NCBI GenBank assembly: GCA_007121535.1
Contig: SKKK01000267.1
Span: 1 to 42,501, forward strand
Reading direction: 5' to 3'
DNA: 42,501 nt
DNA from: Planctomycetaceae bacterium
Lineage (GTDB): Bacteria; Planctomycetota; Planctomycetia; Pirellulales; Pirellulaceae
Part shown: piece by piece, positions 7,708 through 42,501 of the stretch
How positions within the stretch are numbered: the stretch's first letter is position 1
Layout: every line of letters starts with the position of its first letter
Made by a program: the position numbers and the translations under genes
The notes under the pieces: generated by a model
The model's database searches: none
Told to the model about the DNA's origin: nothing
The model's input: only the letters and a program-made list of their open reading frames with translations

Positions 7708-10700
7708 GTGGCGAGAACCAGTTTGGTACCCGCATGGTTATTGGGAGTGGTGGCGGCCGGTCTGGCGGCGACGTGGGGACATGGCGCCGAGCCCTCGAAC
7801 GACGCAAATGTTGTGCCGCTTGAAGCTACAGAAACCGACGGCGCCACGCAAGCGACCAGTCGCGATTGGCCGATGTGGGGCTACGATGCTCAACGCCGCT
7901 GGGCCACGGCGATGGACTTGGCCGGCGAATTGCACGTGCAGTGGACTCGACAATTGCCGACGCCGATACGAGCTTGGCCCGCGCAGATCGATGACCGAGA
8001 CAAACTCGAATTCGATCGTTCGTACAGCCCGATCGTGTCGGGGCGAATGCTGTTGGTCGCTTCGATGGTGACCGACAGCTTGACCGCCTACGATACCCGC
8101 TCGGGCCGGATGCAGTGGCGATTCCATGCCGATGGTCCGATGCGACTGGCGCCCGCAGCCCATGACGGCAACGTCTACGCCGTTTCGGATGATGGGTACC
8201 TGTACTGTGTGGATGTGGAGACCGGCGAATTGAAGTGGAAGTTCCTGGGCGGGCCGGAAGATCGTCGCCTGTTGGGCAACGCTCGATTGATCGGCCGCTG
8301 GCCCGCTCGCGGTGGCCCCGTCGTGCGCGACGGCCGAGTCTATTTTGCGGCCAGCGTCTGGCCGCTGATGGGAACGTTCGTCCATGCCCTGGATGCCCGG
8401 ACGGGCCAACCGGTGTGGTGCAACAGTGGCTCGGGAGCAATCTACAATCTTCACCAGCACAGCGGGGCCGACGCGTTCGGCGGCGTCGCCCCTCAGGGGT
8501 ACCTGGCGGTGGACGAGGATGTGTTGCTGGTCGCCGGCGGTCGGACGCCACCGGCTGCGTTCGATCTGGAATCGGGAAGACTCAAGTATTTTCACCAAGC
8601 CACGGGGATCGTCGGTAAGGCCGCCGGAGGCTATCGCGTGGCCGTTCAGCAGGGATGGTTCTACAACCACGGCTGGATGTACAGTCTGGAAGATGGTGCG
8701 CTGTTCGATGCCCTGAATGCCAGCGTGTTGACCGACGACGCGGTTTACGTCCTGTCGGACAACGGCAAACGACTGGAAGCGTACTCGCCGCGCCCCGACC
8801 AGCAGGAGGTCCAGGTGATCGATCGGCTGGGCCGAGGTCAATTGCGAAAACAGTATTCTCATCGACGGCTTTGGCGGGAAGATCTGGAACCTGGCATCGA
8901 TCGCCTGTACCTGCTCGCGGGCCAGCGTCTGTACGGCGGGTCAGCAGATGGACGAGTCGTGGCGATCGATTTGCCGACAGACGACCAGTCGGCATCGGTA
9001 ACCTGGCAGGGGCAAGTGGACGGCGCCGTTTGGGAAATGATCGCTGCCGACGACCGTCTGTTCGTCGTGACCGATGATGGCACCTTGGTTTGTTTCGGGG
9101 CCGAACCGGTGGCGGAAGCTCCGAGCTATTCGTCCTCGGGGGTTGCTGAATCTGGGCGGACCGCCGTTGAACCGTCCGGCGGTCCGAATTCCGAGTTAAT
9201 CGAACAGGCGGCAGATGGCGGCGGCTACGCCTTGGTGCTTGGCGCCGGAGACGACCATCTGGTAGACGGATTGCTGGAACACGGCGACCGGCACGTGATC
9301 GTGGTCGACCCGGATCCGGCACGCGTGGCGACGCTCCGCGAACGATTCATCGGCCGAGGCTGGTATGGGCGACGCGTCGCTTGTCACGCAGCTTGTCCTC
9401 GGACGTTCCCGTTCCCACCGTACATGGCGGAAGTCCTGGTCGTCGGCGACCGATCCGCGTTGGGCGATATCGCGCGGGACGGCGTGATCGAGCACCTGTT
9501 TCAAGCGCTGCGTCCTTATGGTGGCACCGCATTTCTACCATTGGATGCCGCCGAGCATGATTGGTTGGACGAGTGGATCGAGGCGGCGGACATGACCGGA
9601 GCCGTGCTCGAACGTCACGGCGACATGACGGTGCTCCGCCGGCACGGACCCTTGCCGGGCGCCGGCCAGTGGAGCCATCAATACGCGGACGCTGGCAACA
9701 CCGTCTACTCGACCGACGAACTCACTCGAGCACCGTTGGGCGTGCTCTGGTTCGGCGGTCCGTGCAACCAGCACCTGCTGCCGCGGCACGGCAACGGGCC
9801 GATCCCTCAGGTCGTCGGCGGACGGCTGGTCATCCTGGGCGTCGAAACGTTGAGCGCTCGTGACGTGTACACGGGCCGCGAGTTGTGGGTGAAGGAGTTG
9901 CCGGGCATCGGCCATCCCTTTACCGATCTGGACTTCGAAGAACGATGGCGTACGGGGGCTTACGTCCACATGAGCCGTGCGACGGGAATCGGCGCCAACT
10001 ATATCGGCAGCCCCTACGTGTCGTTGACCGATGGCATCTACGTGCGGCACCAGCAACGCATCTTGCGCTTGGATCCCACGACCGGTCGGAAGCAAAGCGA
10101 GTTTGCCTTGCCGATCGAAGCGCAGGCCAACTCGTTTGACGACTGGGGTCATCTCAGCGTCTTCGGAGACCACTTGATCACTACGGTGCATCCCCAGATT
10201 TTCGACGATCAACCGCTGGGTCGCCAGAATTGGAACGCGCTGTCCAGCAGCCGTCTGGTCGTGATGGATCGGCATGATGGCCGAGTGCTGTGGACCCGTC
10301 AGGCCGAGCTGGGTTTTCGGCACAACGCCATCGTCGCGGGCAACGGGACGGTGTTCGTCATCGACAGCCTGACTCCGGAAGCTCTCCAACGATCGGCGCG
10401 ACGCGGCGAGAACGCCGAAGGTGCTGCGGTGCTGGCACTGGATGCGGATACCGGTCAGCCGCGTTGGACGGTGAACGAGGATGTCTTCGGAACCTGGTTG
10501 GGCTACTCCGAAGAACACGATGTATTGATCCAAGCCGGCCGTCGAGGGATTTCGGGTGATCGTCGCGAGCTGACTGACGAACCCAACGATCGGATCGTCG
10601 CGTTGCGGGGCAGCGATGGCCGAATCTTATGGGATCGGCAAACCAGCTATGCCGGGCCGTTGGTGCTGCGCGACGACACGATCATCCCCGGCCCCTTGGC

Positions 10701-11622
10701 TCGCAACCGAGGCCCCTCAGCGTTCCTGGACCTGCTGACCGGTCAGGATCTATACCAGGATCATCCGCTGACCGATCAGAAGATCCCCTGGTCCTACGGC
10801 CGGACCTACGGCTGCAGTACGCACAACGCCAGCAAGTACCTGCTGACCTTTCGATCGGGCGCGGCCGGGTTCGCCGATATGACGGCCGCCGGCGGCACGG
10901 CCAACCTGAGCGGGTTTCGCGCCGGATGCACTAACAACCTGATCCCGGCCGACGGAGTGCTGAGCGCTCCGGATTACACGCGTACGTGTACCTGTTCCTA
11001 CCAGCAACAGACGTCTTTAGCACTGATCCACATGCCCGAAGTCGAAAATTGGATGTTCCATGCAATCGAGCGAGGCGACGGCATCCTCCGACGTTTGGGC
11101 CTGAATCTGGCCGCACCGGGAAATCGCATGTCGCCGACCGAAACGCTGTGGTTGAACTATCCCAGTGACGGTGGCGCGTCCCCCGATCTGGCCGTCGAGA
11201 TGACCGCAACGGACGAGCAGCCGTTTCGAATCCATTCGTCGTTGATCGATTCCGACTCGGACAGCCTGCCATGGGTTGCCGGTTCCGGGATCATCGGCCT
11301 CAACCGACTGGACCTGCCGTTGACTTCCGGTGAACCGACGCAGCAGGATGATCGTCCGCCGCGCCGCTACACAGTACGTCTGCACTTTCTCGAGCCCCGT
11401 GCCATCGATGTCGGGCAACGCGTCTTCGATGTGGTGCTGCAAGACCAAACCGTGTTGACCGACTTTGACATCGTGGCTCGGACCGGCGCCCCCAATCGCG
11501 CTTTGGTGACCGAACATCGTGATGTGCTGGCGAGCGACACCTTGCGTATCCAATTGCGAGCTGCCGAATCTTCCGAGCATCGACCCCTGCTATGTGGCAT
11601 GGAGATCGTCGAGGACCCTTGA
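7708..11622 (+). CDS. Exported PQQ-type double beta-propeller protein with methyltransferase-like insert and malectin-like C-terminus
   Basis: 1304 residues from a GTG start with AAAGGGG just upstream. Residues 1-27 are a Sec signal peptide (AATWGHGAEP cleavage region), so the protein acts outside the cytoplasm. Residues ~45-465 form a first PQQ-like propeller (DWPMWGYDAQRR, repeated LYCVDVETGELKW-type blades). Residues ~505-645 look like a class I methyltransferase Rossmann fold (LVLGAGDDHLVDGLLE, IVVDPDPARV, then a LFQALRPYGGTAF block). A second propeller runs ~650-1080, starting again with a SHQYADAGNTVYS blade. The end (~1165-1303) resembles a malectin-type carbohydrate-binding domain (YTVRLHFLEP, VFDVVLQ). 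The insert seems degenerate and faces a compartment without known SAM, so catalysis is doubtful. A 42-base gap leads to the phosphatase gene; the two are likely co-transcribed. Substrate unknown. Confidence 0.85.
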   Translation: MARTSLVPAWLLGVVAAGLAATWGHGAEPSNDANVVPLEATETDGATQATSRDWPMWGYDAQRRWATAMDLAGELHVQWTRQLPTPIRAWPAQIDDRDKLEFDRSYSPIVSGRMLLVASMVTDSLTAYDTRSGRMQWRFHADGPMRLAPAAHDGNVYAVSDDGYLYCVDVETGELKWKFLGGPEDRRLLGNARLIGRWPARGGPVVRDGRVYFAASVWPLMGTFVHALDARTGQPVWCNSGSGAIYNLHQHSGADAFGGVAPQGYLAVDEDVLLVAGGRTPPAAFDLESGRLKYFHQATGIVGKAAGGYRVAVQQGWFYNHGWMYSLEDGALFDALNASVLTDDAVYVLSDNGKRLEAYSPRPDQQEVQVIDRLGRGQLRKQYSHRRLWREDLEPGIDRLYLLAGQRLYGGSADGRVVAIDLPTDDQSASVTWQGQVDGAVWEMIAADDRLFVVTDDGTLVCFGAEPVAEAPSYSSSGVAESGRTAVEPSGGPNSELIEQAADGGGYALVLGAGDDHLVDGLLEHGDRHVIVVDPDPARVATLRERFIGRGWYGRRVACHAACPRTFPFPPYMAEVLVVGDRSALGDIARDGVIEHLFQALRPYGGTAFLPLDAAEHDWLDEWIEAADMTGAVLERHGDMTVLRRHGPLPGAGQWSHQYADAGNTVYSTDELTRAPLGVLWFGGPCNQHLLPRHGNGPIPQVVGGRLVILGVETLSARDVYTGRELWVKELPGIGHPFTDLDFEERWRTGAYVHMSRATGIGANYIGSPYVSLTDGIYVRHQQRILRLDPTTGRKQSEFALPIEAQANSFDDWGHLSVFGDHLITTVHPQIFDDQPLGRQNWNALSSSRLVVMDRHDGRVLWTRQAELGFRHNAIVAGNGTVFVIDSLTPEALQRSARRGENAEGAAVLALDADTGQPRWTVNEDVFGTWLGYSEEHDVLIQAGRRGISGDRRELTDEPNDRIVALRGSDGRILWDRQTSYAGPLVLRDDTIIPGPLARNRGPSAFLDLLTGQDLYQDHPLTDQKIPWSYGRTYGCSTHNASKYLLTFRSGAAGFADMTAAGGTANLSGFRAGCTNNLIPADGVLSAPDYTRTCTCSYQQQTSLALIHMPEVENWMFHAIERGDGILRRLGLNLAAPGNRMSPTETLWLNYPSDGGASPDLAVEMTATDEQPFRIHSSLIDSDSDSLPWVAGSGIIGLNRLDLPLTSGEPTQQDDRPPRRYTVRLHFLEPRAIDVGQRVFDVVLQDQTVLTDFDIVARTGAPNRALVTEHRDVLASDTLRIQLRAAESSEHRPLLCGMEIVEDP

Positions 11623-20682: not shown

Positions 20683-22314
20683 TTATGGAAGCTCGGGCGG
20701 TTCGACGATCGGGAACTCGCCGGACAACGCTTTCAGGAACTCGACCAGATCCGCTTTGTTCTCTTCGGTCAAGTTGGCTTCACCGACGCCCTGTAGCACC
20801 ACCGATAGGTTCGGGTTGTCGAGTCCCCCGCCCGCCATCAAGGCCACGGCCTCTTCCAATGTGGCCACACTGCCGTCGTGGAAGTAAGGCGCGGTATTGG
20901 CTACCTCGCGCAGCGGAGGTACACGGAAGGCGCCCAAGTCGGCTTCATTGCCCGTCACGGCTTTCCGGCCTTGTGGCGGTGGGTCCTGGTCCATGCCGAT
21001 CCCGGCATTGTAGAAGTCGTAGCTACTGAACAAGGGCGGCGTGTGACAGGCGGCGCAACCTACGCTGTTAAACAGTTTCATGCCACGTTTTTGGGCGTCG
21101 GTCAGCGCGTCCTCGTCGCCCGCCATGTACTGGTCGTAGGGCGAATTGCCGCTCAACACCGTGCGTTCAAAGGCAGCAATGGCCTTGGCAATGCCTTCTC
21201 GGGTAACATCGGTGCCGAACACCTTCTGGAAAAGCTCGCGGTAGCCATCCAGTTCGTTCAACTGACCAATCATCGTGTCCAAGTCATGCCCCATTTCGAT
21301 CGGGTTTTCGATCGGTCCCAAGGCCTGCTCTTCCAACGTCTCCGCGCGTCCATCCCAAAACAGCGAGGTCGCATAGGCGGTATTGATCACGGTAGGCGAA
21401 TTCATGTCGCCCAGTTGGCCTTCGATGCCGGAACTGGTCGGCGTATCTTCGGCCCAAGCCATATGCGGATCGTGGCAAGTCGCGCACGAGAGGGTTCCAT
21501 CCTTGCTCAATCGCTTGTCGAAGTACAGCATCTTACCCAATTCGACCTTCTCCGCCGTCATCGGGTTGTCTTCCGGGATCGGCAACGGCGGCAGCCCCAA
21601 CGGCACTTCCACCTCAAATGCCACGGGTTCCTCGGCTGCCTCGTCCGCCGCTTCGTCCGTCGCCGGTTCGTCCGCTGATACTTCCATTGCTTCTTCTGCC
21701 GGTTCCTCCGTTGGTTCCTCCGCCGGTTCTTCGGCTGGTTCTTCGGCCGGTTCTTCGGTCGGTTCTTCGGTCGGTTCTTCGGTCGGTTCTTCGGTCGGTT
21801 CTTCGGTCGGTTCTTCGGTCGGTTCTTCGGTCGGTTCTTCGGTCGGTTCTTCGGCCGGTTCTTCGGCCGGTTCTTCGGTCGGTTCTTCGGTCGGTTCTTC
21901 GGCCGGTTCTTCGGTCGGTTCTTCGGTCGGTTCTTCGGTCGGCTCTTCGGTCGGCTCTTCGGTCGGCTCTTCCATTGGTTCGTCCACCGGCTCTTCGGTC
22001 GGCTCTTCCACCGGTTCTTCCACCGGTTCTTCGGTCGGCTCGTCCACCGGTTCTTCTACCGGTTCGTCCACCGGTTCTTCTACCGGTTCGTCCACCGGTT
22101 CTTCTACCGGTTCGTCCACCGGTTCTTCTACCGGCTCTTCAGTTGGTTCCTCGACGGGGATCTCGTCGAGCGGATCGGCCGGGGTCTCGTCGGGGGCCGG
22201 AGTGATCGGAGTTGGCGGCGCAGGCGTTTCTGGCTGACAGCCAGTCGACAGGACTGTCCAAGCAAGCGCGATCGCTAGGGTCCGGATCCACGCCCATCGT
22301 CGTTTCGAGTTCAT
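20683..22314 (-). CDS. Di-heme cytochrome c peroxidase family lipoprotein with Glu-Pro repeat spacer
   Basis: 543 residues from MNSKRRWAWIRT; the start is fixed by AAAGGAG 7-8 bases upstream, and the longer open frame further upstream is an out-of-frame shadow. A signal peptide ends in lipobox STGC (C26), so it is a lipoprotein. Residues ~55-207 are about 38 units of E-E/D-P-T/V/A, an acidic extended spacer. The peroxidase/MauG module follows (~225-540): heme sites CATCH (~275) and CAACH (~420), AYATSLFWDGR, and EVANTAPYFHDGS. By family knowledge it reduces peroxide or oxidises a partner with electrons from c-type cytochromes. The spacer could hold the enzyme away from the membrane; that is inference. 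It follows the MFS gene by 206 bases on the same strand. Confidence 0.92.
   Translation of the reverse strand: MNSKRRWAWIRTLAIALAWTVLSTGCQPETPAPPTPITPAPDETPADPLDEIPVEEPTEEPVEEPVDEPVEEPVDEPVEEPVDEPVEEPVDEPTEEPVEEPVEEPTEEPVDEPMEEPTEEPTEEPTEEPTEEPTEEPAEEPTEEPTEEPAEEPAEEPTEEPTEEPTEEPTEEPTEEPTEEPTEEPTEEPAEEPAEEPAEEPTEEPAEEAMEVSADEPATDEAADEAAEEPVAFEVEVPLGLPPLPIPEDNPMTAEKVELGKMLYFDKRLSKDGTLSCATCHDPHMAWAEDTPTSSGIEGQLGDMNSPTVINTAYATSLFWDGRAETLEEQALGPIENPIEMGHDLDTMIGQLNELDGYRELFQKVFGTDVTREGIAKAIAAFERTVLSGNSPYDQYMAGDEDALTDAQKRGMKLFNSVGCAACHTPPLFSSYDFYNAGIGMDQDPPPQGRKAVTGNEADLGAFRVPPLREVANTAPYFHDGSVATLEEAVALMAGGGLDNPNLSVVLQGVGEANLTEENKADLVEFLKALSGEFPIVEPPELP
21693..22152. repeat. 12-bp tandem repeat encoding EEPT/EEPV/EEPA units
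   Basis: Imperfect tandem copies of GGTTCTTCGGTC (plus-strand view) run ~460 bp inside the peroxidase gene. Unit length 12 keeps the frame. Near-identical EEPT runs in the middle and more diverged DEPV/EEPV units near the N-terminal side suggest recent expansion by slippage. Confidence 0.95.
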
Positions 22315-22520
22315 CTGGTTGCTCCTTTCGTAACACACGTTCACAAGTATTGCGCCCCTACGGCACAAGGGGGGGAAACCATCGGAAACGGCCGCGTCTT
22401 CAGACATCAGTCGAGTGAACGGGGCTGATTCGTGGTCGGTAACACGCAAGAAATTCTCTAATGAACCTGCGGGCTTGTCAACCTGCCAGCGAAATCGTGG
22501 GCGTTTCTTTGCGAAATCGG

Positions 22521-23837
22521 CTAACTCGGTGCTGTCTCGTTGGAACAGCGGTTGGGCAGCGTCGAGGGGAAAAACATCATCAAAGCGGCCACACAGCCAG
22601 CGCACAGCGTGGAACCCGTCAGCCAGATGCTGGTCCAGTCGCGCTCGCGCACTCCGTTCACCTCGGTGGTGAACCAGTCGCCGACGGCTCCGCCCACCAG
22701 TCCACCGACCAGGAAGCCGATGCTGACAAAGAACACCCCGTAGATGTTCTGCATGCTGCCGCGAACGTCTGGCGGAGCGATCCGGTCGACATACATGTAA
22801 CCGACCGCCAGGAAGCAGCCGAAGCAAAAACCATGCAGGGCCTGACCGACGCCTGCCAGAACCAGCTTGCCGATAAACGGCGGATCGATGCTGAAGACCA
22901 GTGAAAACAGCACGAATCGCAGAAAGTACGCGGTCGCGCCCAAAATCAACGTTCGCTTGTATCCCAGGCTCTTCAACAAATATCCAAGAAAGGCCATCAC
23001 CAGGATCTCGCACCATTGGCCCAGCGAGCTGATCATCTGCTCGCCCGCTTCCTTCCATCCCCCACTGTCCAAAATGTCGCGCAAAAAGACACTGTTGAAC
23101 ACGAAGAAGTACTGGTGAGCGATACAGATGAAAAAGGTGACCAGAACGATCACCAGAAAATGACGCTCGCGCAACATGGCCATCACGATGCCCGGGGCAT
23201 AGGAATGCCGATCGCGAGTGGCAGGCGGTGTGTGCGGAAGCGTCAAGCAGTAGACGCTCATCACGATTCCGACGGCCCCGGACATCGCGAACGCGATTCC
23301 TCGCGCCGCCGCCAACGATTCGCCTTCCAGGCCGCGCAACCATCCCAGTTCGATCAGAAACGCGGGGACGATGAAGCCGATCGTGCCGAACAATCGTATC
23401 CACGGAAATTCCAGCTCGCCGTTCTGCAAGTGCCGAAAAGCCAGCGAATTGGACAGCATCATCGTCGGGACGTACAAGACCGAATACAGCGTTCCCAGCA
23501 GGATTACCGGCCAGACGGCCTGTTGCGTAAATAAGGCCAACATCAAGAGACCGCCCGCTAAATGACATACGGCCATGACCCGCTCGGTGGAAAACGCGCG
23601 GTCGACGATCTGCCCGATCACAAACGGCGCCAAAATCGGACCCACGGCCAACGCCGCGACGAAATAGCCGACTTGTTGAGCCGTGAAGCCCAACGTCTGG
23701 TCGACGTACAGGGCGGCGATCGGCAGATAGCATCCCTGGACGAAGTACTGCAGGAACATCATCAACGCCAATCGAACCAGCAGGGAAATCGAGGACCGTG
23801 GGGCAGGGATTTCGCTTAGAAGGCCGTCGGAATTCAT
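22521..23837 (-). CDS. MFS transporter, nucleoside permease-like
   Basis: 438 residues with about 12 hydrophobic segments spread over the whole length. LALMMFLQYFVQGCYLPIAALY at the start, the GYFVAALAVGPILAPFVIGQIVDR segment (helix 2 and the loop 2-3 motif) and LGTLYSVLYVPTMMLSNSLAFRHL resemble the NupG/XapB nucleoside:H+ symporter group of the major facilitator superfamily. An inner-membrane uptake carrier is likely, perhaps for nucleosides, but the substrate is not proven by these motifs. No strong ribosome site is seen before ATG 23837. It stands upstream of the peroxidase gene and may be co-transcribed with it. Confidence 0.85.
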   Translation of the reverse strand: MNSDGLLSEIPAPRSSISLLVRLALMMFLQYFVQGCYLPIAALYVDQTLGFTAQQVGYFVAALAVGPILAPFVIGQIVDRAFSTERVMAVCHLAGGLLMLALFTQQAVWPVILLGTLYSVLYVPTMMLSNSLAFRHLQNGELEFPWIRLFGTIGFIVPAFLIELGWLRGLEGESLAAARGIAFAMSGAVGIVMSVYCLTLPHTPPATRDRHSYAPGIVMAMLRERHFLVIVLVTFFICIAHQYFFVFNSVFLRDILDSGGWKEAGEQMISSLGQWCEILVMAFLGYLLKSLGYKRTLILGATAYFLRFVLFSLVFSIDPPFIGKLVLAGVGQALHGFCFGCFLAVGYMYVDRIAPPDVRGSMQNIYGVFFVSIGFLVGGLVGGAVGDWFTTEVNGVRERDWTSIWLTGSTLCAGCVAALMMFFPSTLPNRCSNETAPS

Positions 23838-24015
23838 GGTCGCTTCGCTTCTGGAAAGGAACCTGAAACATCTCGCCCGGTCATCCGCCTTAGCCGAGCG
23901 GCTCTGGTTGTATCACAACACCCATTGAACGGCCAGTCCCTGCCCACGCTAAGCTCCGTGGGCGAAGGCAAACGTCGAAAGCCAATGTGGCGACCGCCGT
24001 TTCCCCCTGCGATGG

Positions 24016-28749: not shown

Positions 28750-30276
28750 TCAGCGAGTCTCACTGTAAAACGCTTCCATGAGTTTGGCTTCCCGGCCGGA
28801 ATTGTATTGGGGGTTCGGTTCCGTTGGGACAGGAGCGCCGGTTTCCTCGCGCCATGCCTTCATTTTTGCATGGAGTTCCGCAGTTTTTTCCGGAAGGAGA
28901 TCCGCGAGATTCAGGCGTTCGCCGAGGTCGCGATCCAGGTCATACAACTCGAGCCCTCCGTCCTCAAAATATTCGTGCAACTTCCATTTCCCCAAACGCA
29001 TGACCGCTCCCGGACGGGTCCGGAAAAACGGGTCCCGAGTTTCGAAGTTACCCCTTCCGTAGGCCTGCAGATAGACCGGAAAATGCCAGAAAAGCGCCCG
29101 CTCCGGGATCTCCTCTCCTTCAGTTAGATGCGGCATCAAGCTCAGGCCATCAAGCAGCTTTTGTTCGGGAACCTCGATCCCGGCCGCCTCCGTGAAAGTA
29201 GGAAAGAAATCGACTCCCTGGACCGGTGTCGACGAACGGGTTCCGGCAGGGACTTGGCCTGGCCAGCGAACGATCATCGGCACCCGGATTCCGCCCTCGT
29301 AGTAACTACCCTTTTCACCGCGCAGCGGCCACACCCGCGAGATGTTATGAATACCGCCATTATCCGACGTGAACAGAACCAGGGTGTTTTCCCTGACCCC
29401 GAGTTCGTCCAGCGTCTCAAGCAGGCGGCCGATGTTGTAGTCCATGTGGTCGATCATCGCAGCGTAGGTCGGGTTGAAGTGAGTCGCTGTCGGGCTCTTC
29501 GCCTCATACCTGGCAATTACCTCCTTCTTGGCTTGGATCGGGGTGTGAGGAATGTAGTATTGCATCGACAGGAAGAAAGGACGCCCTTCGTCGCGATTCG
29601 TCAGGTAATGGATGGCTTCGTCGGTCAACCGGAAGGTCAGGTGCTCACCCTCGGGACCGTCTGAAAGAGCCGGATTTCCGTAGGGACTGAAATACCCTTG
29701 CCTAGGATGCCCCCATTGCCCGCCGCCGATATTGACCTCAAACCCATGTTTGAGCGGGTCGGTGCTGATATGCCATTTGCCGATGTGACAGGTGGCGTAA
29801 CCGTTTTCGTTCAGGAGAGTGACAAAGGTCGTATTCTCCTCCGAAATGTATTCGGTGTTGGGTATCGGAATCAGTTTGCGAAGCTGATTTTGTCCGCGAT
29901 CCGAATTCCCGACGGTAAACACACCATGTCGAGGACCATATTGTCCGGTAAACACGACCGCTCGGCTTGGCGAACAATTTGCGGCGGGCGCGTAGGCGTC
30001 CGTGAAAACCATACCCTCTGCCGCTAACCGATCGAGATTGGGGGTCTCGTAGAAAGTGGTTCCCATAAACCCGGTATCACCCCAGCCGAGATCATCAACG
30101 TTGATGAAAACGATATTGGGACGATTTGCTACTTCCTGGCCGACTGCGGTTGGGGGAGCCAGTGCCGCGGTCAGACCGATGAAGGCTGTGGCGGCGACCT
30201 TCAGCAACGTCCTTGCATCCCCTTTTTTCACCACGTCCGGCCGTGTCAACCCGTTCTCTTTATCCGCTGGAAGCAT
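28750..30276 (-). CDS. Exported type I sulfatase
   Basis: 508 residues. The N-terminal region (~22-48, LLKVAATAFIGLTAALAPPTAVGQ) is a signal-type helix. Metal ligands DD at 61-62 and the sulfatase signature C-S-P-S-R at 101-105 (C101 is the formylglycine precursor) are intact, followed by TGQYGPRHG. HIGKWHIS, PHTPIQAKK, LFTSDNGG and KGSYYEGGIRVPMIVRWPG blocks and a KWKLHEYFEDGGLELYDL C-terminus are typical of arylsulfatase A-like S1 enzymes. It removes sulfate esters from glycans outside the cytoplasm; the exact sulfate position is unknown. AAGGAG lies 11 bases before the ATG. It is followed upstream (30331) by a second sulfatase on the same strand at 54 bases, so both are likely one transcript. 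No maturase (FGE) gene is intact in the window. Confidence 0.95.
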   Translation of the reverse strand: MLPADKENGLTRPDVVKKGDARTLLKVAATAFIGLTAALAPPTAVGQEVANRPNIVFINVDDLGWGDTGFMGTTFYETPNLDRLAAEGMVFTDAYAPAANCSPSRAVVFTGQYGPRHGVFTVGNSDRGQNQLRKLIPIPNTEYISEENTTFVTLLNENGYATCHIGKWHISTDPLKHGFEVNIGGGQWGHPRQGYFSPYGNPALSDGPEGEHLTFRLTDEAIHYLTNRDEGRPFFLSMQYYIPHTPIQAKKEVIARYEAKSPTATHFNPTYAAMIDHMDYNIGRLLETLDELGVRENTLVLFTSDNGGIHNISRVWPLRGEKGSYYEGGIRVPMIVRWPGQVPAGTRSSTPVQGVDFFPTFTEAAGIEVPEQKLLDGLSLMPHLTEGEEIPERALFWHFPVYLQAYGRGNFETRDPFFRTRPGAVMRLGKWKLHEYFEDGGLELYDLDRDLGERLNLADLLPEKTAELHAKMKAWREETGAPVPTEPNPQYNSGREAKLMEAFYSETR

Positions 30277-30330: not shown

Positions 30331-31866
30331 TCACCTTTTCTGCCTCCATTCGAATTCCCGCCAGTCCAGTGCTTCATCCATGATTTCGCGGTGCAGTTGC
30401 TGCATCGTCCGCTTCATTGCTTCGAAACGCTCCGGATGCTGTTCCGCCAAGTCATGCTGTTGGCCAGGGTCCTTGCGGAGATGGTACAGGCGAAAATCGG
30501 TCAATTCGGTGGCCTTGATATCACCGATAAACGCCTCTTCGAACATGTTCTGGCGTGGCAGGTCGATGACGGGGTTCGCGACCAGCGACCAGTCGCCTTG
30601 CCGAATCACGCAAACCGGCCGCGAGGGACTATAGAACCAATACAGGGGTGTCTCGCGTATCAGGCGTTCGCCGCGTAGGGCTGGCAAGAGGCTGACGCCG
30701 TCGATCGTCCGGTCGTCGGGAACGTCGACTCCGGCGACTGCGGCCAGCGTGGGCAGGATGTCGACAACTCCGGCGGGTTCGGTGACGATGGTTCCCGGTT
30801 CGATCACGCCGGGCCAATAGAAGACGGCGGGCACGCGAATACCACCCTCCCAGAGGGTCGTTTTTCTCCCGCGGAAAGGATCGTTACTGCCGTCCATGTA
30901 GCTGCCATTGTCCGACGTGAAGACGACCAAGGTGTTGTTCGTTTCGTTCAATTCCTCCAGCTTGTTCATCAGCCGTCCCACGGCCAGATCCATGTATTCG
31001 ATTGCGGCGTAATAGCCGGGTCGAGGTCGATCGGCGTGCCGCTGGGTGAATTCGGGTGGGGCGGTGGGCCCACCGGACCCGTGAGGCTCATTGAACCAGA
31101 CATTCAGGAGGAAGGGACGTTCCGGATCCCGGTGTTCGTCCAACCAGTTGATGGCTTCGTCAACCATCAAATGGCTCGAGTACCCTTCGGTCGGCCCGAC
31201 TGCCTGGCCGTTACGGACGAAGTTCTCGGGATTGCGGTGGGAAGGCACGGCGTTATTGCCGGTGGCGACCCAGTAATCAAAACCGTGGTCGAACAGATCG
31301 GGACCTGGTCGTGCGGGATCCAATCGTGTGGGCCCGCCTCCCGAGGCAGGCCCTTCGCCCGTACCGCGGTAAAACGAGTAGCCCAAATGCCACTTGCCCA
31401 TGTGCGCGGTCGCATAGCCGGCTTGCTGCAGCATCCGAGCATAGCTGATTTCATCCTGGAGCAGATGCATGGTCTGGCTGGGGTGAATCCAACTGTACAC
31501 ACTGGCGCGGAGAGCAAAGCGGCCGGTGAGCATGCTGGCGCGGGAGGGCGAACAAACGGCCGATCCGGCGTAGAAATCGGTGAAACGGGCACCGCCCTTG
31601 GCCAAGGCGTCGATCACCGGCGTCCGGACGATTTCGCTGCCAAAGCAGCCGAGATCGGCGTAGCCCTGATCATCGGCGAAAAAGATCACGACATTCGGCC
31701 GCCGGGCTTCCGCTTGGCCCGCGCCAGCCGCCGGCGCCAGGCCGGTGCCGGCGATCAGGCTCACAGCAAGGAGCATGCTGGCGGCGAGTCGCCAGCGCCG
31801 TCGCGGTTCCCACTGCTGGAACCGGCTGATAACGGCTTGCCACGGTGCGTGTCGTTTGGTCATCAT
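30331..31866 (-). CDS. Exported type I sulfatase (second)
   Basis: 511 residues. A basic region and signal helix (MLLAVSLIAGTGLAPAAGAG, ~31-50) precede RPNVVIFFADDQGYADLGCFGS. DD at 65-66 and C-S-P-S-R at 105-109 form the active site; HMGKWHLGYSF, FTSDNGSYMDG, WEGGIRVPAVFYWPG follow. The order and C-terminal GDIKATELTDFRLYHLRKDPGQQHDL are those of S1 arylsulfatases. It differs from the first sulfatase throughout, so the two are not a recent duplicate and probably act on different sulfate positions. GGGAG precedes the ATG. It lies downstream of the propeller protein gene (144-base gap) and upstream of the first sulfatase on the same strand. Confidence 0.95.
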   Translation of the reverse strand: MMTKRHAPWQAVISRFQQWEPRRRWRLAASMLLAVSLIAGTGLAPAAGAGQAEARRPNVVIFFADDQGYADLGCFGSEIVRTPVIDALAKGGARFTDFYAGSAVCSPSRASMLTGRFALRASVYSWIHPSQTMHLLQDEISYARMLQQAGYATAHMGKWHLGYSFYRGTGEGPASGGGPTRLDPARPGPDLFDHGFDYWVATGNNAVPSHRNPENFVRNGQAVGPTEGYSSHLMVDEAINWLDEHRDPERPFLLNVWFNEPHGSGGPTAPPEFTQRHADRPRPGYYAAIEYMDLAVGRLMNKLEELNETNNTLVVFTSDNGSYMDGSNDPFRGRKTTLWEGGIRVPAVFYWPGVIEPGTIVTEPAGVVDILPTLAAVAGVDVPDDRTIDGVSLLPALRGERLIRETPLYWFYSPSRPVCVIRQGDWSLVANPVIDLPRQNMFEEAFIGDIKATELTDFRLYHLRKDPGQQHDLAEQHPERFEAMKRTMQQLHREIMDEALDWREFEWRQKR

Positions 31867-32010: not shown

Positions 32011-35000
32011 TCATTCCTTGCTGGCCGATGCAAGGCAAAGGACGCGGCCATCACGTGTTGTCAGGAACAGAGAACGGTTGGCGGCGGCCATGCCGTCCCA
32101 GACGGGAGGACTGGGCAGGGGCGTGCGGGTCAAAACGCTGCCGTCAATGGTCGAGACTGCCAAAAGAATCGCCTCCGACTGACCGGCCAACGCGGCTTGC
32201 GATCCCAAGGCATCCGGCTCCGGCCCGGCCACGAACAGCACGTCGGCGGCTTGCAGCATGGCCCAGGCTTGCGTGGGAATCGGCCGCCACCAGCGGAAAC
32301 CGACCGACGCCTCACCCCGCAGGCTGAGCTGCCGGTATTCGACCACGGTGTGGCCCTCAGGCACATCGGTTTCCTTCGGTGCGGCGAACAGGGCGAATTG
32401 CCCGCCCGGCTCGGGCCGAGGCCGCTCGTAGTGATTCTGTCCATAGCCGTAGATCACCTGGTCGTCTTCCACCAGGATGCGGCCCGACGGGTACAGCGTT
32501 CGGCTGAGGCGCAGGTCGTAGAACGCGCCCTGATGGAGCGAGGTAAACCGGGGAGCGTAACTCCACTGGAGGCGGTTGGTCGTATCGCCGCTCAAGTAGC
32601 CGTCGGCGCCGTGCAGGTGGGCGATCGCCTCGTCCTGCCGATTACCGTTCAGATCGAATACCTGATGCCGCAGGAAGATCGCCTCGCCGTTGCTGGACAG
32701 CACGTCGTTCAAGTACCCGTCGACGCCCTCTGCGTCGAACACCTGTGAGCCATCGGGCGCGCGGGAATCGAGCAGCTTGTGGAATCGCATTTCGCCCGCG
32801 TGCGGTTCGATCGCAACCAAGTGCAGCCCGCCGTCAAGGTACGAGGAGCGGCCGGCCGCGGCGTACACCAAGCCATTGACCACCAGGACGCTGCCGTGGA
32901 CCGGCCAGGTGGATTCCAGTTGTCCTTGAGCGACAATCCACTGCTCGTGCGGGGCAACGCGAAATCGCCAGGCCAGGACGCCGTCGCTGGCGCGCAGAGC
33001 GTAAATCCAACCGTCGCGGCAGCCGACCAGGGCGAGCCCTTCATAGATGGTCGGCGGCGAATCAACTCGCCCGCCAACGGTCTGCTCCCAGAGCACCCGA
33101 CCGTCGGCCGCATCGAGCGCCACTACCCGGTGCGCGTCGCTTTGGGCCAGGAACACGCGGCCACCGGCAATCACCGGTGCGGTGAGCGTATCGCCCAGGC
33201 TGGTTTCCCAGGCGTGTTGCAGTTTCGGGGCCAGCGCCGTGCCGGCTCGACCCGACCGCGCGGGGTCGCAACGATAGGTGGGCCAATCGCCGGGCTGAAC
33301 CCGAACCTTTTCTGCCGTGGTTTGGCCGAAGGCCGGGCCGCGATCCAGCCGACGATCGTCCGAGTCGGCCGCCGGCAGCTTCGAACGGGCGGCTTTCAGC
33401 GCGAAGAAGCCCGGCAGCTTGCCACGCACGTAACACGCACAGTCGTGTGGCGGCACGTACAGCATGCCGTTGGCGGGCATGACGCCGTAGTGGCAGCTTC
33501 CGCGGATCCAGTGGTGCGACTGGACTTCGCCGCTGCTGGTATCGACGAACTCGATGCCCGCCCGGGCGGTGATGATCGTGCGGTCAGCGGCCTTCATCTG
33601 ATGGCAGCGGTGGTGCTGGAAGATGTAGCCATAGCCCTCGCGGATCGTGTCCTGAACGTCGCCCGTGTGAGGGTCGTAGCTGTTGAAGTAGAGACTGTCA
33701 GATCGCGGCCTGCCGGGCGACCACAGGTTCATATCTTGGTCGGGGCTCCAAAGCAACCCGCCGAAGCCGAACAGGTCGACCGGCACAGAGTAATTGGACG
33801 CCGGATAATCCCCTCGCCACAACTCCTGGCCATCGCTGGCCGAGACCACGTTCAACTGCTTCCCGCCGGCGAAGGCCACGACGTCGCGGTAGATCATCAG
33901 CGTGGGGGCAAACTGCGGCGTGATCCAGATGGTCGAAGCCTCGGCCCCGGGACGGTCCGGATTTTCCACGTCTTGCCACGACACTTCCTGGCCCGTGGGC
34001 GCCGAGGTCCATCGCGGCTGGCCCGTCGTCAGGTCGCGGCTCTCCAGGCGCGTGCCGTCGTGGTACACCACCTGGCGGTCATCGGCCGCCAAACACAGCG
34101 GCAGGATCACGTCGACGGCTTGCCGCCAGAGCACCTGTCCTGAGTCGGCCTTCAAAGCCACAATGACCTTTGGCTGCCGCAGGCCGCGCCGCACGTCGGC
34201 GGGCTTGTTCGGGTTGACCAGCACCACCAGCACGCCATCGGAAAGGATCATCTCCTCGGCGTTTTCGGTTTCCGCCAGCGTGCGAAGCACCTCGCCGGTG
34301 CCCGCGTCCAGCACGCTGACCGGAGCGAACTCTTCGAGCGTGGTGTACACGCGGTCGTCGTGGGCGATCAACTTCCGATGCATCTGGACGGGGCCGACCT
34401 TCTTCCCGCCGAAAGCGCCACCCCACGTGGGCAACGGATGCCGCCAGAGCTGGATGCCGTTAAAAGCGTCGCGAGCAATCAGAGCCCAATTGCGCTCGCG
34501 GGCGGCGAAGTGCGAATCGTCCAGGATGTAGAAGATCCGCCCGCCGGCCGACACCATGCTGCTGGTCTTCACGCTCCGGTTCCACCGAGGCTCGGCGTAC
34601 CACTGCATGTAGCGAGGCGGGCCCACCCGCGTATCGCGACTGGTGGGATTGCCCGTAGCGTCGTAACGGGCATGAGTCCAGTGGTCGATGTCGTCGGGCC
34701 AAGGTTGGCGATAGGTCGCCATTTCGCTGTCCCGCTTGATAAAGGCCATCCCGCCGGGCGCCAACACGCGGTCACGCTCCTCGGCGGGCATCTCGAGCTG
34801 TGCGTCCGAGATAAGCAGCAGGTTGACCGAATGATCGGCGTAAGGCAGGCGACGGCCATCCCACACCACGGCCGTAGCCCGGCCGCACAGCCCGCGATTG
34901 CGCAAGTCCGCGCGCACGGCGTCCAGTCGCGCGGGGTCGCGCACCAGCCCTTGGACAAGGAAGCTGCCGCTGTCCGCCACAGAAGCAGCCAGCAACCCGT

Positions 35001-35166
35001 CGTCACACCCGGCATGGACGATCAGGCCGCCGCTCAGCCCGCTCTCGCTCACAAGCCGCTCGATCCGGTTGTCCGCCAGCCCGCCCGTATCCGCCACCGC
35101 AGGCACAGCGGCCAGCAGAATCACCACGCCCAACAGGACTTTGCACAGTTTTTCGTAAAGTCTCAT
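32011..35166 (-). CDS. Exported methyltransferase-like / PQQ-type beta-propeller protein
   Basis: 1051 residues from MRLYEKLCKVLL at 35166; the in-frame ATG at 35205 is rejected because homology with the 41355 copy begins at MRLY. Signal peptide 1-26 (VPAVADT). Residues ~31-146 form a class I methyltransferase fold: motif-I-like IVHAGCDDGLLAAS (49-62), LPYADHSVNLLLISD (107-121) and VLAPGGMAFIKR (134-145). A DDIDHWTHARYDATGNPTSRD linker leads to PQQ-like blades from ~170 to the end (repeats such as ALKADSGQVLW, ALDAADGRVLW, ALRASDGVLAW). The protein should be periplasmic or exported, so the methyltransferase part may not use SAM. No clear ribosome site precedes the ATG. Likely first gene of the sulfatase transcript. 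Confidence 0.88.
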   Translation of the reverse strand: MRLYEKLCKVLLGVVILLAAVPAVADTGGLADNRIERLVSESGLSGGLIVHAGCDDGLLAASVADSGSFLVQGLVRDPARLDAVRADLRNRGLCGRATAVVWDGRRLPYADHSVNLLLISDAQLEMPAEERDRVLAPGGMAFIKRDSEMATYRQPWPDDIDHWTHARYDATGNPTSRDTRVGPPRYMQWYAEPRWNRSVKTSSMVSAGGRIFYILDDSHFAARERNWALIARDAFNGIQLWRHPLPTWGGAFGGKKVGPVQMHRKLIAHDDRVYTTLEEFAPVSVLDAGTGEVLRTLAETENAEEMILSDGVLVVLVNPNKPADVRRGLRQPKVIVALKADSGQVLWRQAVDVILPLCLAADDRQVVYHDGTRLESRDLTTGQPRWTSAPTGQEVSWQDVENPDRPGAEASTIWITPQFAPTLMIYRDVVAFAGGKQLNVVSASDGQELWRGDYPASNYSVPVDLFGFGGLLWSPDQDMNLWSPGRPRSDSLYFNSYDPHTGDVQDTIREGYGYIFQHHRCHQMKAADRTIITARAGIEFVDTSSGEVQSHHWIRGSCHYGVMPANGMLYVPPHDCACYVRGKLPGFFALKAARSKLPAADSDDRRLDRGPAFGQTTAEKVRVQPGDWPTYRCDPARSGRAGTALAPKLQHAWETSLGDTLTAPVIAGGRVFLAQSDAHRVVALDAADGRVLWEQTVGGRVDSPPTIYEGLALVGCRDGWIYALRASDGVLAWRFRVAPHEQWIVAQGQLESTWPVHGSVLVVNGLVYAAAGRSSYLDGGLHLVAIEPHAGEMRFHKLLDSRAPDGSQVFDAEGVDGYLNDVLSSNGEAIFLRHQVFDLNGNRQDEAIAHLHGADGYLSGDTTNRLQWSYAPRFTSLHQGAFYDLRLSRTLYPSGRILVEDDQVIYGYGQNHYERPRPEPGGQFALFAAPKETDVPEGHTVVEYRQLSLRGEASVGFRWWRPIPTQAWAMLQAADVLFVAGPEPDALGSQAALAGQSEAILLAVSTIDGSVLTRTPLPSPPVWDGMAAANRSLFLTTRDGRVLCLASASKE

Positions 35167-35189
35167 GGGTAACAAGCCCGTCTTGCAAA
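34020..35189 (-). repeat. Arm A of a large inverted duplication
   Basis: The first ~1.15 kb of the 32011-35166 gene plus 23 upstream bases match 41332-42501 on the other strand without indels. Over the 382 shared residues I count about 28 differences (~93% identity). Homology may continue beyond the right edge of the window. Confidence 0.9.
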
Positions 35190-35239
35190 TGAATGAACTA
35201 AGCACCCCGCCAGATATTTCTTGGTGGAATTGGGCGAAA

Positions 35240-35312
35240 GGGGTCGGAAGTCGTTTTCGGGTCAGCCGCTTTCCATGTGGACAATCGTTGGCCGAAAACG
35301 ATTCCCGATCCC
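35240..35312. repeat. 73-bp inverted-repeat element, copy 1
   Basis: Arms 35240-35260 (GGGGTCGGAAGTCGTTTTCG...) and 35292-35312 (CCGAAAACGATTCCCGATCC...) are complementary at 18 of 21 positions and enclose 31 bases. It lies 74 bases before the 1051-residue gene's start and shares its arm sequence with 35826-35897. Confidence 0.8.
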
Positions 35313-35354
35313 GTTGCTTCCCCCATACAAGGCTACCTTAATTGGCAAAAAACT

Positions 35355-35702
35355 TCTAGCCGGGTGCTTATCACCCACTGGCCCGCGGGCATCGGCCGCC
35401 GCGGTGAACTCGAACACCAGGTGGGCCACGTGGTCGATCTCATGCCCACCTGCCTGGAACTCGCTGGCGCCGATCATCCCTCCCAGCGGAACGGCCAGCC
35501 GACGCTGCCGCTCGAGGGCATCAACCTCGTCGGGGCTTTCCGCGGCGAATCGCTCGGCCGCCGGGAACCGCTGTACCAGCAGCACCTGGGCAACCGGGCC
35601 ATCCGCGACGCGAATTGGAAGCTGATCGCCGCGCGGAACGGGCCCTGGTCGATCAGCGACGCCAGAATCGCCGTGGACAGACCGCGCTGTTGGCCGAGGT
35701 AG
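35355..35702 (+). pseudogene. C-terminal fragment of a sulfatase
   Basis: The frame reads SSRVLITHWPAGIGRRGELE, HQVGHVVDLMPTCLELAGAD, LEGINLVGAFRGESLGRREP, then HLGNRAIRDANWKLIAARNGPW. This is the conserved tail of arylsulfatases (HWPAGI, VDLMPTCLELAG, REPLYWEHEGNRAIRDGNWKL). The N-terminal active-site half is missing and the last residues drift (RIAVDRPRCWPR). It lies between two inverted-repeat elements. Confidence 0.8.
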
Positions 35703-35825
35703 GAATCTGCTGGAAATACTCGAATTTTGATTTCCCTGAATCACTAACCGCCAGGAATCGGATATAGTAGGGACCGGCAAAAGCAATAACGGTCGGATTG
35801 TGGTTGGGTGGTACGCAACGCGAAC

Positions 35826-35897
35826 GGGGTCGGGAGTCGCTTTCGGGTGACGTCAAACGATGGGGAAGACGCTCGTTCCGAAAACGACTCCCGACCC
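35826..35897. repeat. 72-bp inverted-repeat element, copy 2
   Basis: Arms GGGTCGGGAGTCGCTTTCGG (35827-35846) and CCGAAAACGACTCCCGACCC (35878-35897) match at 19 of 20 positions around a 31-base interior. Same arms as copy 1, 586 bases away. Confidence 0.85.
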
Positions 35898-35966
35898 TTT
35901 CCCACGACGCGACACTAATTCATTTGCCGGTCCTAAGCGCGAGGAACCGAGGGGTAACTAACCGGG

Positions 35967-39172: not shown

Positions 39173-39965
39173 TTGGCCTCTGCGATACGCTCCGCGAATG
39201 TATCACGGCGCGGCCCGTAGCGGGATTCGGCGGCCGCCGGCGCTGTCGGGGGTCTGGCCGCGAAGGAGTTCGAACGCGGTTGGGCCGGCCTTCTTGACTT
39301 GGACGAGCAAGCAAATAGGTGCCGCCTGTCAGCAACAGATCGATTGCACGGGGGGGGCTGACATCGTCGGACTGGCCGGGTTTTCGCGAATGCTTGAAAA
39401 GACCAAGCAACCAGGGACCCTGATCTTTCGGCTGGCCGGGTACAACGTCGACGACCTGGATGCCGACGAACATCGCCGGTCGCCGTTCGGTGCTGCGGCT
39501 GATTCGCTTCATCCGCAGTTTGCCGGGCTGCGAGCGTGCCCAGGTCCAGCGCGGTGGAGATGTCTGCGAAGCGTTATGCCCGCAACATGCTGACCGATAC
39601 GCTATCCTTCCGGCGACCAGCCCTCGCGATACTCGTCGTGCAGCAGTTGATTCGCTGCATCGTCGTTGGTGAATCGCCCTCCCACCGAGGGAGACGGAAC
39701 ATCGGAGTGTGTTACGCCGCACCTGGACCGACTGGCGAAGCATAAAATAGGTGCCATCGGGCCCGGCAGGATTCCTTTCACGGCGCTTGACGGGATACCG
39801 TCGCCCAAATAGAATTCGGAGATTGCCATCCGCAATAAACGTGACATGCGAATCCAAAGGTCGATCGTGTTTGCGGGGACCGCTGCTGCGACCGAGCATC
39901 TTCGCGAGCCGATTTTTTGGGGGTGTTCGAAGATTGACCCCCTGTGCGATAGAAGAGAAGAACAG
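39173..39965. other. Gap with undefined remnants
   Basis: About 790 bases with no family-supported gene. The motif AAATAGGTGCC occurs twice (near 39313 and 39746). A minus-strand frame has a protein-like stretch (VGGRFTNDDAANQLLHDEYR) near 39603-39680 that I cannot place. Confidence 0.45.
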
Positions 39966-41331: not shown

Positions 41332-42501
41332 TATGCAAAACAGGCTTGTTACCCATGAGACTTTACGAAAGACAGTGCAAAGTCCTGTCGGGCGTGGTGA
41401 TTCTGCTGGCCGCTCTGCCCGCGATGGCGGATACGGCCGGGCTTGCGGACGACCGGATCGAGCGGCTTCTGAGCGAGAGCGGTCTGAGCGGCGGTCTGAT
41501 CGTCCATGCCGGCTGTGACGACGGGTTGCTGGCTGCTTCGATGGCGGACAGCGGCAGCTTCCTTGTCCATGGGCTGGTGCGCGACCCCGCCCGACTGGAC
41601 GCCGTGCGCACGGACTTGCGCAATCGCGGGCTGTGCGGTCGGGCTACGGCCGTGATGTGGGATGGCGGCCGTCTGCCTTACGCCGATCATTCGGTCAACC
41701 TGCTGCTTGTCTCGGACGCACAGATCGAGATGCCCGCCGAGGAGCTTGACCGCGTGTTGGCGCCCGGCGGGATGGTCTTTGTCAAGCGGGACGGCGAAAT
41801 GGCGACCTATCGCCAGCCTTGGCCCGACGACATCGACCACTGGACTCATGCCCGGTACGACGCCACGGGCAATCCCACCAGTCGCGACACGCGAGTGGGC
41901 CCGCCGCGCTACATGCAGTGGTACGCCGAGCCGCGGTGGAATCGGAGCGTGAAGACCAGCAGCATGGTGTCGGCCGGCGGGCGGATCTTCTACATCCTGG
42001 ATGATTCGCACTTCGCCGCCCGCGAGCGAAGCTGGGCGTTGATTGCTCGCGACGCGTTCAACGGCATCCAGCTTTGGCGGCATCCGTTGCCCACGTGGGG
42101 TGGCTCTTTCGGCGGGAAGAAGGTCGGCCCCGTCCAGATGCATCGGAAGTTGATCGCCCACGACGACCGAGTGTACACCACGCTCGAAGAGTTCGCTCCG
42201 GTCAGCGTGCTGGACGCAGGAACCGGCGAGGTGCTCCGTACGCTGGCGGAAACCGCACACGCCGAGGAGCTGATCCTCTCCGATGGCGTGCTGGTGGTGC
42301 TGGTCAACCCGAACAAGCCCGCCGACGTGCGGCGCGGCCTGCGGCAGCCGAAGGCCGTTGTGGCCTTGAGGGCCGATTCCGGACAGGTGCTTTGGCGGCA
42401 AGCCGTCGACGTGATCCTGCCGCTGTGTTTGGCGGCCGATGCCCGCCAGGTGGTGTACCACGACGGCACGCGTCTGGAAAGCCGCGACCTGACGACGGGC
42501 C
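41332..42501 (+). repeat. Arm B of the large inverted duplication
   Basis: Near-identical to 34020-35189 reversed, including the 23 bases before the ATG (20 of 23 matches). It is cut by the window edge. Confidence 0.9.
41355..42501 (+). CDS. Exported methyltransferase-like / PQQ-propeller protein, second copy (3' partial)
   Basis: Starts MRLYERQCKVLSGVV at 41355 and stays open for 382 codons to the right edge. Signal peptide ending PAMADT; motif IVHAGCDDGLLAAS, LPYADHSVNLLLVSD and VLAPGGMVFVKR of the methyltransferase-like domain; then the blade region as in the 32011-35166 gene. Differences are concentrated in the first 150 residues (about 19 of 163, against 9 of 219 after it), mostly conservative. 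That pattern fits a functional paralogue rather than a dying copy. The opposite-strand open frame is its shadow. Confidence 0.9.
   Translation, partial: MRLYERQCKVLSGVVILLAALPAMADTAGLADDRIERLLSESGLSGGLIVHAGCDDGLLAASMADSGSFLVHGLVRDPARLDAVRTDLRNRGLCGRATAVMWDGGRLPYADHSVNLLLVSDAQIEMPAEELDRVLAPGGMVFVKRDGEMATYRQPWPDDIDHWTHARYDATGNPTSRDTRVGPPRYMQWYAEPRWNRSVKTSSMVSAGGRIFYILDDSHFAARERSWALIARDAFNGIQLWRHPLPTWGGSFGGKKVGPVQMHRKLIAHDDRVYTTLEEFAPVSVLDAGTGEVLRTLAETAHAEELILSDGVLVVLVNPNKPADVRRGLRQPKAVVALRADSGQVLWRQAVDVILPLCLAADARQVVYHDGTRLESRDLTTG

Follow-up and report, generated by a model that had tools for sequence, protein, structure and literature searches.

What would a methyltransferase-like fold be doing behind a signal peptide and in front of two β-propellers? 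The question is raised by a gene at positions 32011–35166 on the reverse strand of contig SKKK01000267.1 (assembly GCA_007121535.1) from a Planctomycetaceae bacterium; the whole stretch of 42,501 nucleotides that was analysed is referred to here as the window. An original prediction, made from the sequence alone, had described near-canonical methyltransferase motifs directly after a Sec signal peptide and ahead of a propeller, and had counted three such fusions in the window. In our view, which we hold with modest confidence, the product is probably an exported double-propeller protein that retains a non-catalytic pseudo-methyltransferase cap and has its working site in the first propeller, propeller A. 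The parts of the gene on which the discussion relies are the following.

32011–35166, reverse strand: the gene of interest (1051 amino acids), start codon ATG at 35166, stop codon ending at 32011
35089–35166, reverse strand: putative signal peptide, approximately residues 1–26, with a hydrophobic core at 10–19 and a cleavage site inferred from the sequence
34708–35082, reverse strand: methyltransferase-like (MT) Rossmann core, residues 29–153, β1–β5 and one further strand (profile match, models and fold search)
34618–34707, reverse strand: linker, residues 154–183, with the motif W-T-H...D-A-x-x-N...D in common with the gene type at 7708 described below (sequence)
33337–34617, reverse strand: propeller A, residues 184–610 (model, profile comparison and Pfam)
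33433–33606, reverse strand: conserved cluster of propeller A, comprising Cys521, Trp553, Arg555, Cys558, Asn566, Tyr570, Cys576 and Cys578, with His518 and Arg520 just before it (alignment)
32020–33312, reverse strand: propeller B, BamB/Rv3035-like, residues 619–1049 (Pfam, model and structure alignment)

The product is made up of a putative signal peptide, a modelled class I methyltransferase-fold core, propeller A and propeller B, in the order MT–A–B. The open reading frame itself extends further, to an in-frame GTG (32011–35205, reverse strand).

The N-terminus and the methyltransferase-like domain

The N-terminus of the product is signal-peptide-like. Residues 10–19 (VLLGVVILLA) are strongly hydrophobic and are followed by small residues which, as read from the sequence, suit signal peptidase I and its known rule for small residues. 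A hydrophobic 10-mer lies upstream of the MT domain in 111 of 113 relatives, compared with 87 of 575 random internal stretches from the same proteins; this count is a crude measure rather than a signal-peptide predictor. A lipobox-like motif was found in one of the 113 relatives and a Tat-like motif in none.

An AlphaFold2 model of the whole product, computed from 55 alignment rows (pLDDT 86.6, pTM 0.90), contains a Rossmann core, with block-mean pLDDT values of 85–96 across residues 41–160, and two β-rich units, 184–610 and 619–1049, which we read as propellers A and B. Residues 29–153 are modelled as a helix, β1, a helix, β2, a helix, β3, β4, a helix, β5 and one more strand. The Pfam family Methyltransf_25 matches residues 49–139 (E = 2.1e-4, 22.4 bits), under its curated cut-off of 27 bits, and matches 87 of 94 family domains at E ≤ 0.01, far above chance. 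A profile built from the 94 MT domains matches the solved putative SAM (S-adenosylmethionine) methyltransferase 3dlc with an E value of 4e-10. There were no methyltransferases among the 50 matches listed for a structure alignment of the whole model, because propeller B filled the list, so the MT domain was modelled and searched separately. All of the 50 leading matches among solved structures were then methyltransferase-fold proteins, judged by title or by their known fold. The best was TleD (E = 1.3e-7, 2.2 Å, 118 alignment columns of a 264-residue chain), and two were chains of SpnF, a cyclase with a methyltransferase fold.

The Rossmann core, β1–β5 with its helices, is therefore present in the models and in the fold search. 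The full seven-stranded sheet with β6 and β7 is not, as a single short strand follows β5 in the model before the linker begins. The original prediction had allowed that the motif region might fold as an extra propeller blade; within the limits of modelling, this is ruled out by the Rossmann core in both models (whole protein and domain alone) and by the methyltransferase-fold matches. The domain shares its core with SpnF and with class I SAM methyltransferases of the TleD, RebM and MMP1179 type. It differs from them in standing behind a signal-peptide-like N-terminus, in being trimmed after β5, in lacking the motif-I acid in all 94 family domains and, in the window copy, in having a damaged glycine loop.

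The sequences that had been called near-canonical, HAGCDDGLLAAS (residues 51–62) and VLAPGGMAFIKR (residues 134–145), do belong to a methyltransferase fold, but their description needs to be revised, as the SAM signature of the window copy is damaged. The full GxGxG loop after β1 is found in 74 of the 94 aligned MT domains; the window copy reads GCDDG where GCGDG is usual, i.e. GxDxG, and so lacks the middle glycine. The acid at the end of β2 is Asp or Glu in 82 domains and is replaced by Val75 in the window copy. Loop and β2 acid occur together in 71 of 94. The motif-I acid is absent throughout (0/94), with a histidine at its position in 83 domains, and the same position is Asp in all three of the solved matches shown aligned. 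The adenine-side Asp is present in 33 domains and the acid at the end of β4 in 70. The starred clade of seven to which the window gene belongs spans Planctomycetota, Armatimonadota and Lentisphaerota; all seven members lack the middle glycine of GxGxG and have valine at the β2 acid, four lack a second glycine as well and three keep the motif-I histidine.

On a FastTree phylogeny of propeller A (115 rows, with long-branch warnings), the SAM signature is kept in 77 rows and lost in 38. The minimum number of changes is 25, at least 15 of them forced by starred branches, compared with about 32 for shuffled labels. Judged from these alignments, loss of the signature appears to be recurrent and only mildly clustered, yet the domain is retained.

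We also compared the ratio of nonsynonymous to synonymous substitution rates (dN/dS) between modules in five pairs, which share sequences and are not independent. Between the window gene and its second copy at 41355 (see below), the ratio is 0.54 in the MT domain and 0.09 in residues 154–382 (Fisher p = 0.006). Against the ortholog in genome G001 the window gene gives 0.42 for MT, 0.14 for propeller A and 0.21 for propeller B (p = 0.03), and the second copy gives 0.29 compared with 0.14 in the propeller. With the relative at locus L030, the MT value is 0.39 for the window gene (0.22 and 0.18 in the propeller regions) and 0.48 for the G001 ortholog (0.27 and 0.20). The MT domain thus seems to be the least constrained module in most pairs while still being under purifying selection. 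Across 43 close pairs without overlap, change in the MT domain relative to that in propeller A had a median ratio of 1.37 where the signature was kept (27 pairs), 1.37 where it was mixed (eight) and 1.72 where it was lost (eight; one-sided p = 0.056), and constraint is perhaps weaker still after loss of the pocket.

Propellers, module orders and distribution

The most conserved part of the protein, as far as the alignment indicates, is the cluster in propeller A and not the MT part. His518, Arg520, Cys521, Arg555, Cys558, Asn566, Tyr570, Cys576 and Cys578 are each found in 112–115 of 116 rows (Arg555 in 115, Asn566 in 114 and His518 in 112). The four cysteines are all kept in 114 of these rows; of the other two rows, one is truncated and one is a paralog on a long branch. 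In the 7708 type, the same four occur in all 27 rows that are not gapped at these positions (that alignment has 29 rows, one of them the gene from the window itself). In an exported protein, four such cysteines would probably form two disulfides or a metal site.

Propeller A contains Pfam PQQ_2 in 43 of 43 members, and its profile matches BamB and quinoprotein dehydrogenases, mostly across its middle. Structure alignment tested only propeller B well. This unit aligns with mycobacterial Rv3035 (Z = 31.4), YxaL (Z = 28.5), BamB structures (Z = 26–27) and the PQQ-dependent alcohol dehydrogenase 9m2c (Z = 24.1, 4.2 Å over 353). In spite of this likeness, the equivalog cut-offs for BamB are not reached (TIGR03300, 69 of 285.2 bits; PRK11138, 58.2 of 423). 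BamB is a single-propeller lipoprotein with a lipobox, whereas the window protein has two propeller units and an MT domain, and the lipobox-like motif is confined to the one relative noted above. Tuwongella immobilis is reported to have 28 paralogous BamB genes with products of 43–193 kDa, and the available part of that report names no MT domain among them (PMC8567305). In Planctopirus limnophila only bamA is reported to be essential, the other bam genes being non-essential, not found or present as multiple paralogs (PMC10632474). Tetrathionate hydrolase, which has the propeller fold in common with our protein, gave the best Foldseek E value for the whole window model. PQQ-dependent alcohol dehydrogenases share the fold as well, but a PQQ enzyme was rejected as an identification: the window protein has no vicinal Cys-Cys pair (CC occurs anywhere in six of 116 rows), and the curated cut-offs of PQQ dehydrogenase families are not reached.

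Two further genes in the window bear on the arrangement of these modules.

41355–42501, forward strand: second copy; DNA identity is 94.0% along 1171 bp, a stretch that starts 24 bp before the ATG and runs out at the contig end
7708–11622, forward strand: permuted relative, with propeller B at about 7840–9147, an MT-like domain at about 9193–9672, propeller A at about 9679–11322 and a malectin-like end

On its DNA identity, the copy at 41355 is a recent duplicate of the gene of interest, cut by the contig end. The 3' portion of a copy with 85% identity lies on another contig, C692, and may or may not be the end of the 41355 copy. In profile–profile comparisons between the window type and the 7708 type, MT matches MT with an E value of 1.7e-21, propeller A matches A with 1.8e-34 over 356 columns and B matches B with 4.2e-54 over 363 columns. 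The cross matches are weaker (A of the window type to B of the 7708 type, 6.5e-19 over 131 columns; B to A, 1.2e-7 over 130), and within-type controls of A against B gave 1.1e-12 over 139 columns and 5.8e-12 over 300 columns. By this measure each module clearly matches its own kind best, although propellers A and B themselves appear to be related. We therefore read the two genes as the same three modules in two orders, MT–A–B here and B–MT–A with a malectin-like end at 7708. Both share the succession of MT domain, W-(T/S)-H linker and propeller A. The 7708 type has a longer stretch after β5, which, as read from the sequence, may retain a helix and a β6/β7 hairpin. The MT domain does precede the propeller in the gene of interest, as originally proposed, but what had been called a second architecture is better described as a reordering. 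Since one of the three fusions is a duplicate of another, the window holds two independent architectures, not three, and the pairing does recur.

The family is broad and, as far as we searched, has not been described as such; no description of the MT–propeller architecture was recognized in the literature searched, mostly titles and abstracts. When genome contigs were scanned with the alignment of paralogs, at least 576 candidate stretches were obtained; 566 of the 576 listed encode a relative. By record title, the best 80 of these relatives come from Planctomycetota, Verrucomicrobiota, Kiritimatiellota, Lentisphaerota, Armatimonadota and Poribacteria, with some titled just 'bacterium'; being the best of at least 566, these 80 loci favour full-length members. 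Single metagenome-assembled genomes labelled Desulfobacteraceae and Nealsonbacteria among them may be binning errors. Three of 108 matching frames were dropped as they began after residue 60. As to the scope of individual steps, A2 used 54 of 56 listed references, A4 skipped one domain of odd length, and A5 covered 42 of 94 relatives together with the window gene.

The MT profile is matched at E ≤ 1e-10 in 58 of 392 genomes of the phylum, that of the window included (40 of 253 good ones), with at most nine candidates scored per genome. Within the genome of origin there are 30 matches at E ≤ 0.001 and, of the 28 listed, 23 lie in frames of 631–1666 amino acids. A few short frames of 228–280 amino acids, matched weakly, are probably ordinary methyltransferases. 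Propeller A gives 17 matches in this genome at E ≤ 1e-20. Twelve of these reach the N-terminal end of the profile, and immediately upstream of each of the 12, in frame, there is an MT match (paired by eye between two listings). The remaining five comprise second pieces, genes that are split or at a contig edge, and a match starting further in. The survey bears out the suggestion that the pairing is a recurring theme rather than chance.

Some loci carry the family in groups. Same-strand runs of two to four members, several nearly touching, are found at L035, L036, L045, L051, L053, L064, L070, L088 and L097, and at L055 and L076 one frame lies between two members. At L007 (G000:C381) a paralog is split between two frames, one of 261 amino acids with the MT domain and the next of 784 with the propellers, which represents a broken gene or an assembly error.

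Proposed function and its alternatives

On the interpretation that we favour, the protein would be exported by the Sec route. Its class I methyltransferase-fold domain would form a constant N-terminal cap that has lost methyl transfer and persists beside propeller A as a folded module, serving for docking or as a lid. The working part would presumably be propeller A, in which His, Arg, Asn, Tyr and four Cys residues are conserved, its cluster acting as a substrate or metal site or as a pair of disulfides, and propeller B would be a BamB-like partner. An analogue is the animal fatty acid synthase, in which a methyltransferase fold has been kept in a large multidomain protein after loss of function; the analogy is a general one, and the synthase is a cytoplasmic and unrelated host protein. 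The protein might act on extracellular, perhaps sulfated, glycans, a role weakly suggested by two sulfatase genes downstream.

30331–31866, reverse strand: sulfatase, same strand, 144 bp downstream of the gene
28750–30276, reverse strand: second sulfatase, same strand; a 94% DNA counterpart directly follows the G001 ortholog

Several observations weigh against this interpretation. The MT domain has dN/dS below 1 in all five pairs, and its faster change is not proof of decay, because it also outpaces propeller A where the signature is kept. With 25 changes compared with 32 for shuffled labels, the signature trait is only mildly clustered and some of the losses may be scatter. The β2 acid is not universal in real methyltransferase folds and, being absent from two of the three solved matches shown aligned, proves little alone. 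Most of the domains compared may still hold a ligand, as 71 of 94 keep GxGxG and the β2 acid. No sulfatase was found among seven neighbours scanned beside relatives of 58–60% identity in genomes G002 and G003, which instead gave DUF1573, cytochrome c554, pyruvyl transferase, restriction-modification, MMPL or nothing; this slightly lowers our confidence. At other loci, Pfam matches among 58 same-strand neighbours (of 68 same-strand and 121 in all, ten having been left out by hand) include four sulfatase, four Gfo/Idh/MocA and five phosphodiesterase-type, the last probably overlapping with the sulfatase matches. With four and four of 58, no control set and no sulfatase among the neighbours scanned in G002 and G003, the glycan link is thin and is a lead only.

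The alternative to which we give most weight, while thinking it unlikely, is that the MT domain is a non-catalytic ligand-binding domain, a sensor outside the cytoplasm: members with an intact pocket would bind an adenosyl compound or other small molecule and gate the propellers, and the window clade would have lost or changed its ligand. The frequent joint retention of GxGxG and the β2 acid is consistent with this, as is the β4 acid, and the histidine at the motif-I position looks more like a specific replacement than random decay. Against it, the pocket positions stand only a little above the remainder of the domain in conservation: 15–40% of 94 other positions exceed positions 51, 53–57 and 75, 60% are more conserved than position 120 and 90% are more conserved than the adenine-side position 103. 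Loss of the signature is also frequent, and the histidine itself is kept in only three of the seven members of the window clade. A working exported SAM-dependent methyltransferase, acting on an extracellular glycan or protein, would account for the class I fold and the sequence relationship to solved methyltransferases. We regard it as very unlikely, as we know of no SAM supply outside the cytoplasm, the motif-I acid is missing from every domain, the adenine-side Asp is present in a minority, the glycine loop of the window copy is damaged, and one short strand follows β5, the best match covering less than half of the TleD chain.

A further alternative is that the N-terminus is no export signal and the protein works with SAM in the cytoplasm, and it is true that the start codon choice and the cleavage site are inferred from sequence. 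The recurrence of the hydrophobic stretch in the relatives makes this highly improbable, and the adjoining sulfatase at 30331–31866 likewise starts with a hydrophobic stretch (by eye); the same recurrence speaks against the non-functional signal peptide that had been named as a ground for doubt. To a chance fusion confined to this genome we give practically no weight. Two of the window's three fusions do stem from one recent duplication, but the spread of the family across genome contigs and across the phylum, together with the second module order, rules it out.

A bolder interpretation, which we offer as speculation and consider rather improbable as a whole, is that these proteins form a so far unnamed superfamily, exported and present in several bacterial phyla. 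A methyltransferase fold would have been relocated to the exterior of the cell and come to serve a propeller site with four cysteines as its ligand-binding lid; the motif-I Asp would have changed to His, and the signature would then have been lost many times. The occurrence of the modules in two permuted orders suggests one fixed three-domain body whatever the order in the chain. Some planctomycetes carry dozens of large 'BamB/PQQ-like' genes, and a sizeable set of such proteins forms one family with a defined three-module body and a conserved cysteine core as a target for study. The names 'methyltransferase' and 'PQQ enzyme' are probably wrong for this family. If our interpretation is true, the family, with a SAM-type fold retained outside the cell, would also offer a clear example of the recycling of an enzyme fold.

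Other features of the window

A palindromic interspersed repeat of about 173 bp lies at 35199–35371, about 30 bp upstream of the ATG. It has sharp ends and terminal inverted repeats, and 39 further copies are 84–91% identical to it (40 scored of 541 first-look candidates). The repeat forms a strong hairpin (consensus approximately −85 kcal/mol over 12 rows), with no target-site duplication evident by eye, and a diverged inverted copy is found at 35818–35907. It looks like a miniature inverted-repeat transposable element and has no Rfam match; across the whole window, Rfam gave nothing at gathering scores.

Positions 39327–39552 hold a frameshifted remnant of an FAD-dependent oxidoreductase (PF12831). 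An intact relative of this remnant follows the C692 copy (L110:1234–2583), and the region upstream of the G001 ortholog has a further PF12831 gene, on the opposite strand. The gene at 20683–23871 on the reverse strand encodes a MauG/MbnH-like di-heme protein with a PT-rich repeat, and internal DNA repeats are present at 21601–22158. Near the G001 ortholog, the frame at L141:8714–9559 (reverse strand) starts like a group II intron-type reverse transcriptase, as judged by eye from the N-terminus only.

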